From: Acidimicrobiales bacterium
Lineage (GTDB): Bacteria > Actinomycetota > Acidimicrobiia > Acidimicrobiales > SHLQ01
DNA length: 64,000 bases
Direction of reading: 5' to 3'
Assembly: GCA_020629635.1 (NCBI GenBank)
Contig: JAHDCX010000001.1
Coordinates: forward strand, 484,525 to 548,524
The position numbers were made by a program, and so were the translations under genes. Positions within the stretch are counted from its first letter, which is position 1. The number at the start of each line of letters is the position of its first letter. Positions 1,508 to 43,160 of this stretch are shown here, in pieces. The notes beneath the pieces are model-generated. The model saw only the letters and a program-made list of their open reading frames with translations, searched no databases and was not told where the DNA came from.

Positions 1508-3265
1508 TCATCGACAGTCGGTGTCTCCGATCCGGCACGCCAAGTCGCTTGCCGGGGTGTGGTCGATGCGTGCGGAGGTCCACCATCCATGGGGTCCGTC
1601 GTTGGCGAAGGCGTAGGCGTTCGCCCGGTTGGGGTCGCCGGCCACGGCAATACGAATGCGCTCTGGTCGTGTCGCGACCGGTACGTATCGGTCCGGATCA
1701 TCGGACTCGCCGTAGATCGGCGGGACGACGCCGCTTCGGGCGAGCTCGGCGAGCTGTGGGCGGCCCGGCGTCAGGTTGGACCACTCGCCGATGTAGCGCT
1801 CAAACGAGCGCGCCGTGATTCTGGCGTTCTCGAACAGATGCAGCTGCACCTCCTCGAAGGTCCGCCCGTCGCGATGAAGCGTTCGGGCGATGAGCGGGGA
1901 CACGACGAGCAGTGGACTGAACTGGTCGCTGCCGAGACCGTGGACATGGGTCAGATCCCATGACGCCGAACGAGCGATGCCGTCGGCCAGGTAGGGGATG
2001 ATCTCCTCCGCCACCGATCCCGTGACGCTGCCGATCAGAACGCCGCTGTTCATCCGTGCGAGCGTGACGACGTCCTCATCGGGCCCATGCCCCATCTGCT
2101 CGCCGATCGACGGCCAACCGAGCTCGCGGAGGCAACGCCGATCCTGACCGAGTACGGGGCGGGCGGGGTTGCCGAAGGTCGCCTTGTCGAGCTCATCGGC
2201 GGTGAACCCGAAGACGTTGCGCAGATACAGCCGCAACCACCGCCCGACCGCCGTATTTGCCGGTGTGCCCTCTCTCTGCGCTCCTGGACCAGCGGAGAAG
2301 CCGAGCGGCGCGGCGCTCGGGCCGTCGAGCAGGATCAATGCGTCAGCGCCAGTGGTGTTTCCGGAGTGCTCTGCCCCGTAGCCCGGGTCCAGCAGTATCT
2401 CGGCGATGGCGATCAGCACAGGCAAGTGCTCCGGGCGACAACCCGCCATCACTGCGTTGACTGCGATGGACCAGATGGTGACGTCGCGGCCCGACGACGG
2501 GGCCACTCCGAGCCTCTTCCAGGGGTCGTGCCCCGAGGCTCCGAGAAATCGCTCGACGCGAGCTTCGGTCGGAGGCGCAAACGTGGTGCCGTCGCTCCAA
2601 CCTCGGTCGATGAAGACGTCGTGGATGGTGTCGAGGTCACCACTGGCCACGATTTCGAGTGCCGTCGGTTCTTTCGACGAGGCGTCGTACTCCTGCTCGC
2701 CGGTGGGCGAGACGAGGCCCGCAACGATCTGGGGAATGGTCGTCTCGACGAAATGGCCCACCATCTCGTCGCGGTCCTGGGCGTCCACATGGCCGACCGT
2801 CATTGCCAGGGCGAGGCCGTCCCAACCGAGCCCACGGGCGGTTGCCGAAGCCTGGCCGGCAAAGCCTTCGCACAGGACCGAAACCGACGGAATCCCTGCC
2901 GATTCGGCGGCGATCGCTGCCCGCATCACGGCGGGCGTGCAGCTGCCTCAACAACCCATGCCGGACACGACGGCATCGACCCCTCTGGTCCGTAGATCGT
3001 CGGGGAGTCGGCCGATTCGTTCCTTCTCGTCCGCTCCATGGAGATTGCCGAACTCGGTGTGGTCAACGATCTGGACCTCGTTCTGCTCCATCAGGTATTC
3101 GGCGAGGACCGGAAAGAGCTCGTCGCCCCGAAAGAGGTGATCCCACAGGAAGGCGATTCGGGCCCCGTGAAGATCTGCGAGCCGTGGTGCTGGCCGGCGG
3201 GCCTGAACGCCGCGGGGAGACCGCGGCCAGACGACGTCGTAACGAGGTTCTTCAGGGTGCTCCAC
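1508..3265 (-). CDS. UGSC-type selenoprotein read through in-frame TGA (Sec106)
   Basis: Two abutting same-frame ORFs are separated only by one TGA (2950-2948). Read through, they give one 585-aa protein whose junction is GMGC-U-GSC-TPAV, the U-G-S-C motif for which this (seleno)protein family is named. Residues before the stop (LADLHGARIAFLWDH, then DAVVSGMGC) and after it (MRAAIAAESAGIPSVSVLCE) form one continuous domain. The long C-terminal part carries DGTTFAPPTEARV and AVNAVMAGCRPEHLP (around residues 270-280), which I associate with the long form of the family. A hairpin suited to a bacterial SECIS follows the TGA. The start is taken as GTG at 3265; no good ribosome site is visible and a later ATG is possible. 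Biochemical function is unknown; a redox or thiol/selenol role is inference. A conventional gene caller would split or truncate this gene. Confidence 0.82.
2919..2936 (-). promoter_or_regulatory. Candidate bacterial SECIS hairpin
   Basis: On the minus strand, 11 nt after the TGA, GCCCGC (2936-2931) pairs perfectly with GCGGGC (2924-2919) around the six-base loop CGTGAT. The loop begins 17 nt after the TGA and has G as its second base, within the usual description of bacterial SECIS elements (short upper stem, a G in the first two loop bases, about 16-37 nt from UGA to loop). It lies inside the coding region, as bacterial SECIS elements must. Confidence 0.7.
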
Positions 3266-3304: not shown

Positions 3305-4495
3305 ATGAGTGATGGCTTTCCAGTTGACCGCGTGCGGGCAGACACGCCGGGCGTCGAGACGGTCGTGCACCTGAACAATGCGGGGAGTTCGTTGCCCCCA
3401 GACGTCGTTGTCGACACGGTGATCGACCACCTCCGTCGTGAGGCCTCGATTGGCGGCTACGAAGCGCGTGACGAAGCTGGCGCTCGCATCGACGCGGTCT
3501 ACGGCTCGATCGCCCGGCTCATCAACGGGCGCGCCGAGCAGGTGGCCATCGTCGAGAACGCCACCCGAGCGTGGGACATGGCGGTCTACGGCTATCCGTT
3601 CCAGGCGGGGGACCGTGTGCTGACGGGCCGAACCGAGTACGCAAGCAATCTCATCGCCCTTCGACAGCTCCGAGACCGCCATCGCCTCGAGATCGTTCTC
3701 ATCGAAGACGACGATGCCGGCCAGATCGACCTCGATCATCTCGAACGCGAACTCTCCGCGGGCGCCGCCATGGTCGCCCTCACTCACATCGCGACGAGCG
3801 GCGGATTGATCAACCCCGCAGCCGAAGTCGGCCGACTCTGTCGGGCGCACGGGGTGTTCTTCGTCCTCGACGCGTGCCAGTCGATCGGCCAGGTTCCGGT
3901 CGACGTGGAGGCGATTGGTTGCAATGTCCTCACGACCACGGGTCGCAAGTTTCTGCGGGGGCCACGGGGCACGGGGTTCTTGTGGGTCGACGGAGACGCA
4001 CTCGATCGGCTCACGCCTCCGCTGCTCGACCTTCACGCCGCCGAGATCACCGATGACGGGTATCGGCTCGTCGACGGTGCCCGACGCTTCGAGAACTGGG
4101 AGCGCTACTTCGCCGGGACGCTCGGACTCGGTGCCGCCGTCGACTACCTGCTCGGACTCGGGATTGACGCCACAACGGGTCGGACGCTCGCGCTCGGCCG
4201 GAGTCTGCGTGCCGGTCTCGAGGCTGCGACCGGGGTGACCGTCCACGACAAGGGTGTCGACAAAGGCGCCATCGTGACCTTCTCGATGGACGGGGTGCCG
4301 GCCTCCGAGGTCAAAGAGCGGCTGGCCGCTGCGGGCATCAACACGAGCGTGTCGAGCGGTTTGCGCGCACGATACGACCTCGGTGACCGAGGTCTCGACC
4401 TCGTGATCCGGGCGTCCGTTCACTACTACAACACCGTCGAGGAGCTCGAACACTTCTTCGGCACGATCGAGAGGATCCGCAATGAGCGATCGTGA
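3305..4495 (+). CDS. Class V aminotransferase (cysteine desulfurase/selenocysteine lyase fold)
   Basis: 396 aa. A PLP-dependent fold-type I enzyme. Visible landmarks: LNNAGSSLPP near the N-terminus, LTHIATSGG with His161, VLDACQSIGQ with Asp189 (cofactor pyridine contact), and TTTGRKFLRGPRG with Lys215 as the Schiff-base lysine. The family includes cysteine desulfurases, selenocysteine lyases, kynureninases and EgtE-like C-S lyases; there is no obvious desulfurase active-site Cys loop, so the substrate is open. The ATG at 3305 has a -10 box 8 nt upstream, and the ORF continues upstream without support. It diverges from the UGSC selenoprotein gene (39 nt between starts) and overlaps the following oxygenase gene by 14 nt. 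A role in selenium or sulfur chemistry is suggested by context only. Confidence 0.85.
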   Translation: MSDGFPVDRVRADTPGVETVVHLNNAGSSLPPDVVVDTVIDHLRREASIGGYEARDEAGARIDAVYGSIARLINGRAEQVAIVENATRAWDMAVYGYPFQAGDRVLTGRTEYASNLIALRQLRDRHRLEIVLIEDDDAGQIDLDHLERELSAGAAMVALTHIATSGGLINPAAEVGRLCRAHGVFFVLDACQSIGQVPVDVEAIGCNVLTTTGRKFLRGPRGTGFLWVDGDALDRLTPPLLDLHAAEITDDGYRLVDGARRFENWERYFAGTLGLGAAVDYLLGLGIDATTGRTLALGRSLRAGLEAATGVTVHDKGVDKGAIVTFSMDGVPASEVKERLAAAGINTSVSSGLRARYDLGDRGLDLVIRASVHYYNTVEELEHFFGTIERIRNERS

Positions 4496-5426
4496 AGCAC
4501 GTATCCAGAGACTCGGGGAGGTCCTTGGCATCCATCGTCCGGTCCTGTGTGCCCCGATGGCGCGGATTGCGGGTGGACGCCTGGCGGCTGCTGTGTCGAG
4601 CGCAGGAGGACTCGGCTTCTTGGGTGCCGGCTACGGAGATCCGGGTTGGCTCGGCGAAGAGATGACCCACGTGCCCGACTCGTCTGCAGTCGGGATCGGC
4701 CTCATCACCTGGCACATGGCGCCAACGGCGGTACGCGATGCGCTCGTCCACCAGCCGAAGGCGATCTGGCTTTCGTTCGGGGACCCGGCGCCGCACATTC
4801 CCGAGATCCACGAGGCGGGTGCACTCGCCGTGTGCCAGGTCGGCCGCGTCGCCGAGGCGGTGGCGGCTGCAGATGCTGGCGCCGATGTTGTGGTCGTGCA
4901 GGGGAGCGAGGCCGGCGGACATGGGCGGGCGGGACGAGCGCTCTTCGGTCTCGTCCCCGAAGTCGCCGATGCCGTCGATGTTCCGATCGTGGCAGCTGGT
5001 GGGATCAGCGAGCCCCGCGGGCTCCGTGCGGCGACAGAGCTGGGCGCGGCGGGCGTGGCGCTAGGTACGGCCCTCTACGCGACCGACGAAGCCCTTGACG
5101 TCGAGGAGGCGAAGCGGCACCTCGTCGCCACGGACGGAGACTCAACCGTCCAAAGTCGCGTGTATGACCACGTTCGCGGGCCGCTGTGGCCAGACGAGTA
5201 CGTCGGTCGATCGGTGGCGACCGAGCTCACCAACACATGGGCCGGCCGCGAGGATTCGATGGCCGCGGACCTCGACGGGATACGGGATCGCTACGTCGAG
5301 GACGTGGCCCAAGCCAACATGGAGCGACGCGTCGTCTGGGCGGGCGAGGGAGTTGGCGCGATCGATGCGATCGTGCCGGCAAGCTCCGTGGTCGAGGCGT
5401 TCCCCGCGATCCCCTCGATCGGATAG
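4482..5426 (+). CDS. Nitronate monooxygenase family flavoprotein
   Basis: 314 aa. A TIM-barrel FMN enzyme of the nitronate monooxygenase (2-nitropropane dioxygenase) family, which oxidises alkyl nitronates; many members have unknown substrates. The N-terminal PVLCAPMARIAGGRLA and GGLGFLGAG segments, and VVQGSEAGGHG with the expected catalytic His147, are visible, followed by the phosphate-binding VPIVAAGGIS and GAAGVALGTA loops. Length is normal. It overlaps the end of the class V aminotransferase gene by 14 nt, so the two are probably translationally coupled. A strong hairpin follows the stop codon. Confidence 0.88.
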   Translation: MSDREARIQRLGEVLGIHRPVLCAPMARIAGGRLAAAVSSAGGLGFLGAGYGDPGWLGEEMTHVPDSSAVGIGLITWHMAPTAVRDALVHQPKAIWLSFGDPAPHIPEIHEAGALAVCQVGRVAEAVAAADAGADVVVVQGSEAGGHGRAGRALFGLVPEVADAVDVPIVAAGGISEPRGLRAATELGAAGVALGTALYATDEALDVEEAKRHLVATDGDSTVQSRVYDHVRGPLWPDEYVGRSVATELTNTWAGREDSMAADLDGIRDRYVEDVAQANMERRVVWAGEGVGAIDAIVPASSVVEAFPAIPSIG

Positions 5427-41618: not shown

Positions 41619-43160
41619 ATGTCGAGACGAGCCGGGGGACGAGCCGCCCGCAAAGCCCTCCGCGAAGCACCACCGGCCGACGACGCCGTCGCCATCTGGT
41701 CAGGGATGGCCGGCGGTGCCTACTCGCCGCTCACCGAGCCGGCGATGCAGGCCGTTTTCGACGCAGCGCTCGAGCTGCTCGAGCGGATCGGGATGGGTTC
41801 GGCCCCGCCCGAATTCGTTCAGCTGGTCACGACCGCCGGCGGGTCGGTCGACGAGCAGGGCCGTCTCCTCTTTCCGGCCGACCTGGTTCGTCGCACGATC
41901 GACGGTGCGGCCAAGGAGTTCACGCTCTACAACTTCGCTGGAGACGGCGGGCTGGCGATCGGTGGCAGCCGCGTTCACTATTCGACGGCTGGCGCCGGCG
42001 TCATGATGCTCGATCACGAGACGAAGCGCTTTCGGCATTCGACGCTTCAGGACGTGTACGACACCGGCCGGCTGGTCGACACGCTCGACAACATCGACAT
42101 GTACATCCGGACCGTCGTGGCCCGCGACATGGAAACCGCACGCATGCTCGACCTGAACTGGGCCTACGCCGTCATGGCCAGCACGTCCAAGCCCGTCGGC
42201 ACGTCAATGTTCGAGGCGGCGCACGTGCACGAGATCATCGCCATGTACGACATGGCGTTGGGAGGCGAGGGCGAGTTCCGCAAGCGACCGTTCGCGCTCG
42301 CCAACAACACCTTCGTGGTCCCGCCGCTGCGATTCGCCGAAGAGTCCGCACTCGGCCTGGCTGAACAGGCTCGCGTCGGGATTCCGATCACGTTGCTCTC
42401 CGCGGGTCAAGCCGGCGCCACGTCGCCCGCCGCACTCGCCGGATCGCTCGCTCAAGCATTGGCCGAGTGCCTCGCCGCGCTGGTCTGCGTGAACCTGATC
42501 TCGCCAGGGCACCCCTGCGTCATGGGGATGTGGCCCTTTGTCTCCGACCTCCGAACCGGAGCGATGAGCGGCGGAAGCGGCGAAGAGGCAGTGCTCAACG
42601 CGGCGTCAGCGCAGCTGATCAATTGGCTCGGTCTTCCGTCGGGGGTTGCCGCGGGCATGGCGGACTCCAAGCTCCCCGACAACCAGGCGGGCCACGAGAA
42701 GGCCCTCACGGTCGGACTCGCGGCGCACGCCGGGTCGAACATCGTCTTCGAGTCGGCGGGCATGCTCGCCTCGATCATGGCGGGATCGCACGAAGCGCTG
42801 GTCATCGACAATGACATGATCGGTTCGGTTGCCCGGACCGTGCGCGGGATCGAGGTCGACGCAGACACGCTCAGCGTCGACGTCATCGACTCGGTCATCA
42901 ATGGCGAGGGTCACTTTCTCGGGCACCCGCAGACGCTGTCGATGATGCAGACCGAGTACACGTATCCACTCGTGGGAGATCGCCTGAGCCCCGACGACTG
43001 GGTCGACGCCGGCGCCCGCTCGATCGAAGAGACGGCCCACGACTACGTCGTGCGCACGCTGGCCACGCACCTGCCCCGACATCTGCCAGCGGATCGGGAC
43101 GCCAAGATCCGCGACGCATTTCCGATCGAGCTCGGTCCGTTGTCGTCGATGATCGACTGA
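41619..43160 (+). CDS. MttB-superfamily corrinoid methyltransferase (non-pyrrolysine)
   Basis: 513 aa. Belongs to the trimethylamine methyltransferase (MttB) superfamily of TIM-barrel corrinoid-dependent demethylases. YSTAGAGVMMLDHETKRFR, LLSAGQAGATSPAALAGSLAQALAE, GMADSKLPDNQAGHEKALT and FESAGMLASIMAGSHEALV are conserved family blocks. The ORF has no in-frame amber codon, so this is a pyrrolysine-free member, which typically demethylates quaternary amines such as glycine betaine, proline betaine or carnitine. No corrinoid protein or second methyltransferase gene lies nearby. It is preceded by the conservon and faces the amidase gene. Confidence 0.85.
   Translation: MSRRAGGRAARKALREAPPADDAVAIWSGMAGGAYSPLTEPAMQAVFDAALELLERIGMGSAPPEFVQLVTTAGGSVDEQGRLLFPADLVRRTIDGAAKEFTLYNFAGDGGLAIGGSRVHYSTAGAGVMMLDHETKRFRHSTLQDVYDTGRLVDTLDNIDMYIRTVVARDMETARMLDLNWAYAVMASTSKPVGTSMFEAAHVHEIIAMYDMALGGEGEFRKRPFALANNTFVVPPLRFAEESALGLAEQARVGIPITLLSAGQAGATSPAALAGSLAQALAECLAALVCVNLISPGHPCVMGMWPFVSDLRTGAMSGGSGEEAVLNAASAQLINWLGLPSGVAAGMADSKLPDNQAGHEKALTVGLAAHAGSNIVFESAGMLASIMAGSHEALVIDNDMIGSVARTVRGIEVDADTLSVDVIDSVINGEGHFLGHPQTLSMMQTEYTYPLVGDRLSPDDWVDAGARSIEETAHDYVVRTLATHLPRHLPADRDAKIRDAFPIELGPLSSMID

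Follow-up and report, generated by a model that had tools for sequence, protein, structure and literature searches.

A predicted UGSC-family selenoprotein fused to a companion domain in an Acidimicrobiales bacterium, and its possible remote kinship with glycine reductase

According to a 2008 paper (PMC2398784), UGSC is among the most abundant selenoproteins of the ocean (GOS) survey, with 255 sequences. Both the family and a fusion of UGSC to another domain have been on record since then, the UGSC/Unknown_1 fusion from ocean metagenomes appearing in Figure S1A of that paper. A 2026 review still counts UGSC among the selenoproteins with largely uncharacterised functions (PMC13188914). In bacterial SECIS elements the distance from UGA to the loop is 16-37 nt (PMC10778597), and the hairpin has 5 or 6 bp with an invariant G in the loop (PMC4607533). 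In glycine reduction, electrons pass from NADPH through thioredoxin reductase (TrxR) and thioredoxin (PMC3091704).

We analyzed a stretch of 64,000 nucleotides from an Acidimicrobiales bacterium, referred to here as the window. On its minus strand a frame of 585 codons is open from GTG 3265 to a stop codon at 1510-1508 (positions 1508-3265), with the TGA at 2950-2948 as its sole internal stop. An earlier note on this DNA had described two same-frame minus-strand ORFs meeting at this single TGA, and re-reading the frame gave the same result. The TGA is codon 106, and the translation around it reads ...VSGMGC-U-GSC-TPAVMRA..., with U as residue 106 in the motif GMGC-U-GSC-TPAV that the note had singled out. 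Standard calling breaks the gene into a 473-aa ORF (1508-2929) and an upstream ORF ending at 2948. The probable start codon is GTG 3265, from which the protein would begin MEH..., like two homologues.

The Pfam UGSC family (PF24696) matches residues 10-184 (2714-3238, minus strand), across the TGA, with an E value of 2.3e-29 and 103.2 bits against a cut-off of 25. The U/C-G-S-C motif is present at the Sec site. The remaining residues, from about 200 to 585 (1511-2668, minus strand), form a C-terminal companion domain. Like the UGSC family at large (PF24696, NF041046), the window protein has the U-G-S-C motif, a Pfam match across the TGA, and both Sec and Cys relatives. Unlike the family at large, it is fused to a 385-aa companion and lies far below the NCBIfam equivalog cut-off. 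Its score with NF041046 is 55.2 bits where 125 is required, so the fused form is a divergent UGSC branch and not the NCBIfam equivalog. Weak Pfam matches of the protein to the encapsulin model SrpI were disregarded.

To find homologues of the fused gene we searched 84,980 species genomes and recovered 40 loci, 36 of which cover residue 106. All 36 have a TGA at the identical site and no other stop, and continue through both halves as a full fused protein with 58-72% identity, so that the homologue alignment proposed as a check in the earlier note came out in its favor. The loci L043, L047 and L048 are either remnants or fragments at the edge of a contig. L046 has repetitive sequence where its N-terminal part should be, probably through misassembly. 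The closest homologues found were from Acidimicrobiia. In more distant relatives the Sec site is either TGA or a Cys codon, in line with the Sec and Cys variants that had been claimed for the family. Cys109, the partner cysteine of the U-G-S-C motif (2939-2941, minus strand), is invariant in 35 fused homologues and 20 diverse UGSC domains. Because the Pfam domain spans the TGA, and the TGA and frame are kept in 36 homologues, the junction of the two ORFs is not due to chance, as had been suspected from the residues on either side.

The source genome (4.45 Mb, 96.5% complete) was searched family by family for the Sec machinery. It encodes a tRNA-Sec scoring 65.1 bits, above the Rfam cut-off, with which ARAGORN agrees (anticodon TCA). 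SelB adjoins SelA on contig 28, and SelD itself carries an in-frame TGA at its active site (SHGAG-U-GCK). selA, selB, selC and selD, which had been supposed to lie outside the window, are therefore all present. Reading the TGA as a true stop, with two genes, a decayed gene or read-through without Sec, has as its sole support that standard ORF calling ends there; with 36 homologues, the least similar at 58% identity, retaining the TGA and frame without any other stop, with codons frozen in the hairpin described below, with the full Sec machinery in the genome and with Cys replacing Sec in relatives, it is scarcely credible. Recoding of TGA as Trp was set aside, as TGA terminates other genes here and the Sec machinery is present. 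On the sequence evidence, the window gene almost certainly encodes a selenoprotein in which UGA106 would be read as selenocysteine. Its decoding by ribosomes with tRNA-Sec, SelA, SelB, SelD and a SECIS hairpin, though a predicted step, is strongly supported.

A second UGSC gene with a TGA lies at C6:79614-80114 of the genome. Together with the TGA in SelD and a GrdB/PrdB-like frame, it brings the number of further TGA-containing selenoprotein candidates in the genome to at least three. On contig C6 (L089 566-2505, and L109) this second UGSC selenoprotein reads ALAD-U-GSCVSCSV around its TGA and is encoded downstream of a thioredoxin-fused companion gene. The GrdB/PrdB-like frame, at C12:50623-51204, contains one TGA.

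A SECIS-like hairpin directly follows the UGA of the window gene (2919-2936, minus strand). It consists of a GCCCGC stem, a CGUGAU loop (2925-2930) and a GCGGGC stem. With the U of UGA as nucleotide 1, the motif GCCCGC-CGUGNU-GCGGGC spans nucleotides 15-32, with 6 bp and the loop 17 nt downstream, and the window site is its only match in the genome. With its position right after the UGA, its 6 bp and a G in a small loop, the hairpin fits the published bacterial SECIS rules (PMC10778597, PMC4607533). Codon usage over the hairpin is frozen: T110, P111, A112, V113 and R115 (+4, +5, +6, +7 and +9 after the TGA) are each encoded by a single codon in 37 sequences, despite the 4- or 6-fold degeneracy of these residues. 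Beyond the 12 codons that follow the TGA, no position among 176 conserved ones (116 4-fold, 60 6-fold) is frozen, and the largest single-codon share there is 0.97 for 4-fold and 0.86 for 6-fold residues.

As the stem is identical in all 38 copies of the fused form, covariation within that form is not scorable. Split relatives have a hairpin at the same position with other paired bases, GUCGUGCA/UGCACGAC, GUCGUGGA/UCCACGAC and GGCGUGG/CCACGCC, and 23 of 24 of these hairpins have GU in the loop. The predicted pairs covary between the two classes, fused and split, and within the split one. Unlike the bacterial SECIS as described, the UGSC family has two sequence classes of hairpin, GCCCGC/GCGGGC and GUCGUGC/GCACGAC.

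We also examined how the companion domain occurs elsewhere. Searching the proteins of 396 actinobacterial genomes gave mostly matches to residues 200-550 alone, and in most relatives the companion is a separate gene. We chose 27 actinobacterial loci by the companion domain and scanned the surrounding DNA with an HMM for UGSC. In 24 of the 27 the companion has a UGSC gene beside it or fused to it (22 with TGA, two with Cys), though some of these genomes are from the same genera and the loci are not 27 independent events. The 24 include a second UGSC-companion pair in the window's own genome. Gene order varies, the companion coming first in most loci and UGSC in others. Besides the window family, Variovorax (Cys) and one further actinobacterium (L084) have the two parts fused. 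On haloarchaeal plasmids, genes for UGSC (Cys) and the companion are adjacent or overlapping.

That the same two parts occur separately, in swapped order and fused argues that UGSC and companion may form a physical complex. The two halves very probably make up one functional unit, the second being a putative companion subunit that most relatives would produce as a separate neighbouring protein. From its distribution the C-terminal domain can be described as an apparently constant partner of UGSC. It matches no Pfam or NCBIfam family and no PDB sequence. Its structure model has a pLDDT of 82 and a pTM of 0.85; Foldseek gave no match at E < 0.007, and the best VIA match had a Z of 4.3. Structure matches to fumarate hydratase, SelD/ThiL and cyanuric acid hydrolase were unconvincing. 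We do not claim a new fold from this model.

Some companions carry a redox domain of their own. In 11 companion proteins, including one in the window's genome, there is an N-terminal CxxC domain. Ten of the 11 were aligned; they have T-V-P-T in common, and their profile matches thioredoxins in the PDB with an E value of 1.3e-6. Four loci, from Haloterrigena, Variovorax, Paracoccus and an actinobacterium, encode TrxR-like Pyr_redox_2 proteins near the pair. These are about 305 aa long with a C-x-x-C-D motif, and their best match is thioredoxin reductase TIGR01292, below its cut-off. In Paracoccus versutus, plasmid pTAV4 (L092) encodes UGSC (TGA) and companion between SelA and a block of SelB, the TrxR-like protein and tRNA-Sec, all within about 17 kb. 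Beside the window gene itself there is no TrxR-like gene and no thioredoxin domain.

An AlphaFold2 model of the UGSC half (pLDDT 82, pTM 0.84) is a parallel, Rossmann-like three-layer domain with Sec106 predicted between a strand (98-104) and a helix (109-122). It differs from the likely thioredoxin-like fold suggested in the 2008 survey (PMC2398784). That suggestion and the U-x-x-C motif would suit a stress-defence selenoprotein of thioredoxin-like fold that reduces peroxides or disulfides in general. Going by its title, a paper cited by PMC3091704 finds GrdB itself active as a peroxidase, a further point on that side insofar as a title can be. We regard this reading as unlikely, because the modeled sheet is parallel with Sec after a strand, structure comparison finds resemblance to many Rossmann folds at Z of about 10, the UGSC profile has no similarity to the companions' thioredoxin domains, and the genes next to annotated UGSC relatives are mostly for catabolism (CoA transferases, enoyl-CoA hydratases, transporters), not for stress.

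Sequence comparison points to the Sec proteins of glycine and proline reductases. UGSC members give weak but repeated matches to the GrdB and PrdB models. The strongest is a Cys-form UGSC against GrdB (E 9.7e-7, 28 bits against a cut-off of 65.45), other members matching weakly. The window protein and UGSC members are all below the TIGR01918 and TIGR04483 cut-offs, the window protein giving PrdB alone at an E value of 0.099. Counted along the reported ranges, the UGSC Cys/Sec maps to position 345-347 of the GrdB model and 148-149 of PrdB; for comparison, the Clostridium sticklandii proteins have Sec350 in GrdB and Sec152 in PrdB. An hhalign comparison of 20 UGSC domains with 11 GrdB proteins placed Sec on Sec (E 8.3e-5, probability 61%), and two control comparisons were far weaker. 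The fused UGSC branch alone gave a weak match to GrdB (P 0.005). Against the PDB, the UGSC profile found FtsZ-like noise only.

These results support a putative remote homology of UGSC and GrdB and do not support membership in GrdB/PrdB. The UGSC half would then be distantly related to the C-terminal, Sec-bearing part of GrdB and PrdB (glycine, betaine and D-proline reductases). As in GrdB/GrdH and PrdB, the UGSC Sec is in a similar context, U-G-[ST]-x-T followed by a helix and GIP, and the thioredoxin/TrxR supply proposed for it would be shared with glycine reductase. Unlike those proteins, UGSC is shorter and similar to them only remotely, would have the companion as its partner where they have pyruvoyl GrdE/PrdA, and is found in Acidimicrobiia, haloarchaea and Pseudomonadota.

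We favor, with some reserve, the view that the window gene encodes a GrdB/PrdB-like selenol reductase, a selenoprotein with the companion as its second half, fed from NADPH through a thioredoxin-type relay. For a GrdB/PrdB-like selenol reductase supplied with thioredoxin-type electrons, taken by itself, we consider the case evenly balanced. In the proposed mechanism the Sec106 selenolate, in its Rossmann-like domain, would attack a substrate lying where the two domains meet; the companion might, as a guess, hold this substrate. Cys109 would resolve the product, giving a selenenylsulfide, and NADPH would re-reduce it via a TrxR-like flavoprotein and the thioredoxin-type domain. The outcome would be a reductive step, probably in breaking down a small organic acid or amino compound. 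More tentatively, UGSC and companion could constitute a selenol (or thiol) reductase of two components, so far unrecognised but widespread in bacteria and haloarchaea, and fed by TrxR. Its Sec domain would be shared by descent with glycine and proline reductases, and a companion of unmatched fold would replace the pyruvoyl subunit, with a single chain in Acidimicrobiia.

In the window the neighbours of the gene encode an ABC-3 (zinc-type) permease, a class V aminotransferase and a nitronate monooxygenase. The aminotransferase gene (3305-4495) is related to EgtE/SufS and divergent, with just 40 bp between it and the start codon of the UGSC gene. At 1-100 are repeated His/Asp-rich codons (EHGDEDHD) in a gene that adjoins the permease and probably encodes its metal-binding protein. 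Near the fused genes, the only recurrent neighbour is an upstream AsnC/Lrp-type regulator, in about nine loci, the remainder being antisense shadows; in L042 it is at 4442-5074 on the opposite strand. As neighbours differ among the fused homologues, the substrate is not readable from context.

Genes like class V aminotransferases or desulfurases, namely the divergent EgtE/SufS-like gene so close to the window gene, a SufS-like one close to the pair of Paracoccus and an Aminotran_5 gene close to that of Variovorax, could suggest that the UGSC-companion pair serves sulfur or selenium metabolism. This seems improbable, as no homologue of the window aminotransferase was found beside four or more other fused genes, and the three aminotransferase-type enzymes differ from one another and fall below curated family cut-offs. 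Elsewhere in the window, an Rfam PYLIS_3 match (42657-42756) lies inside an MTTB-family ORF (41619-43160). As this ORF is open without an in-frame TAG, the match is probably coding similarity and not pyrrolysine use.

Like UGSC/Unknown_1, the window protein combines UGSC with a conserved domain of unknown function and is found in aquatic microbes, and the two probably have the same architecture. The fusion itself has therefore probably been reported already (PMC2398784). The accessible text of that paper is without genomic pairing, thioredoxin/TrxR links or similarity to GrdB. Judged against the open-access literature, the constant partner and the redox context of UGSC look new. Knowing a constant partner, a likely source of electrons and a remote tie to glycine reductase makes this orphan family accessible to assays.

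The UGSC domain is above cut-off in 105 of 296 sampled Acidimicrobiia genomes, with a TGA in most of the copies listed, and many of these genes are therefore probably split into two fragments in gene catalogues. In one genome of this class (G481) we counted eight UGSC domain matches, suggesting an expansion of the family there.
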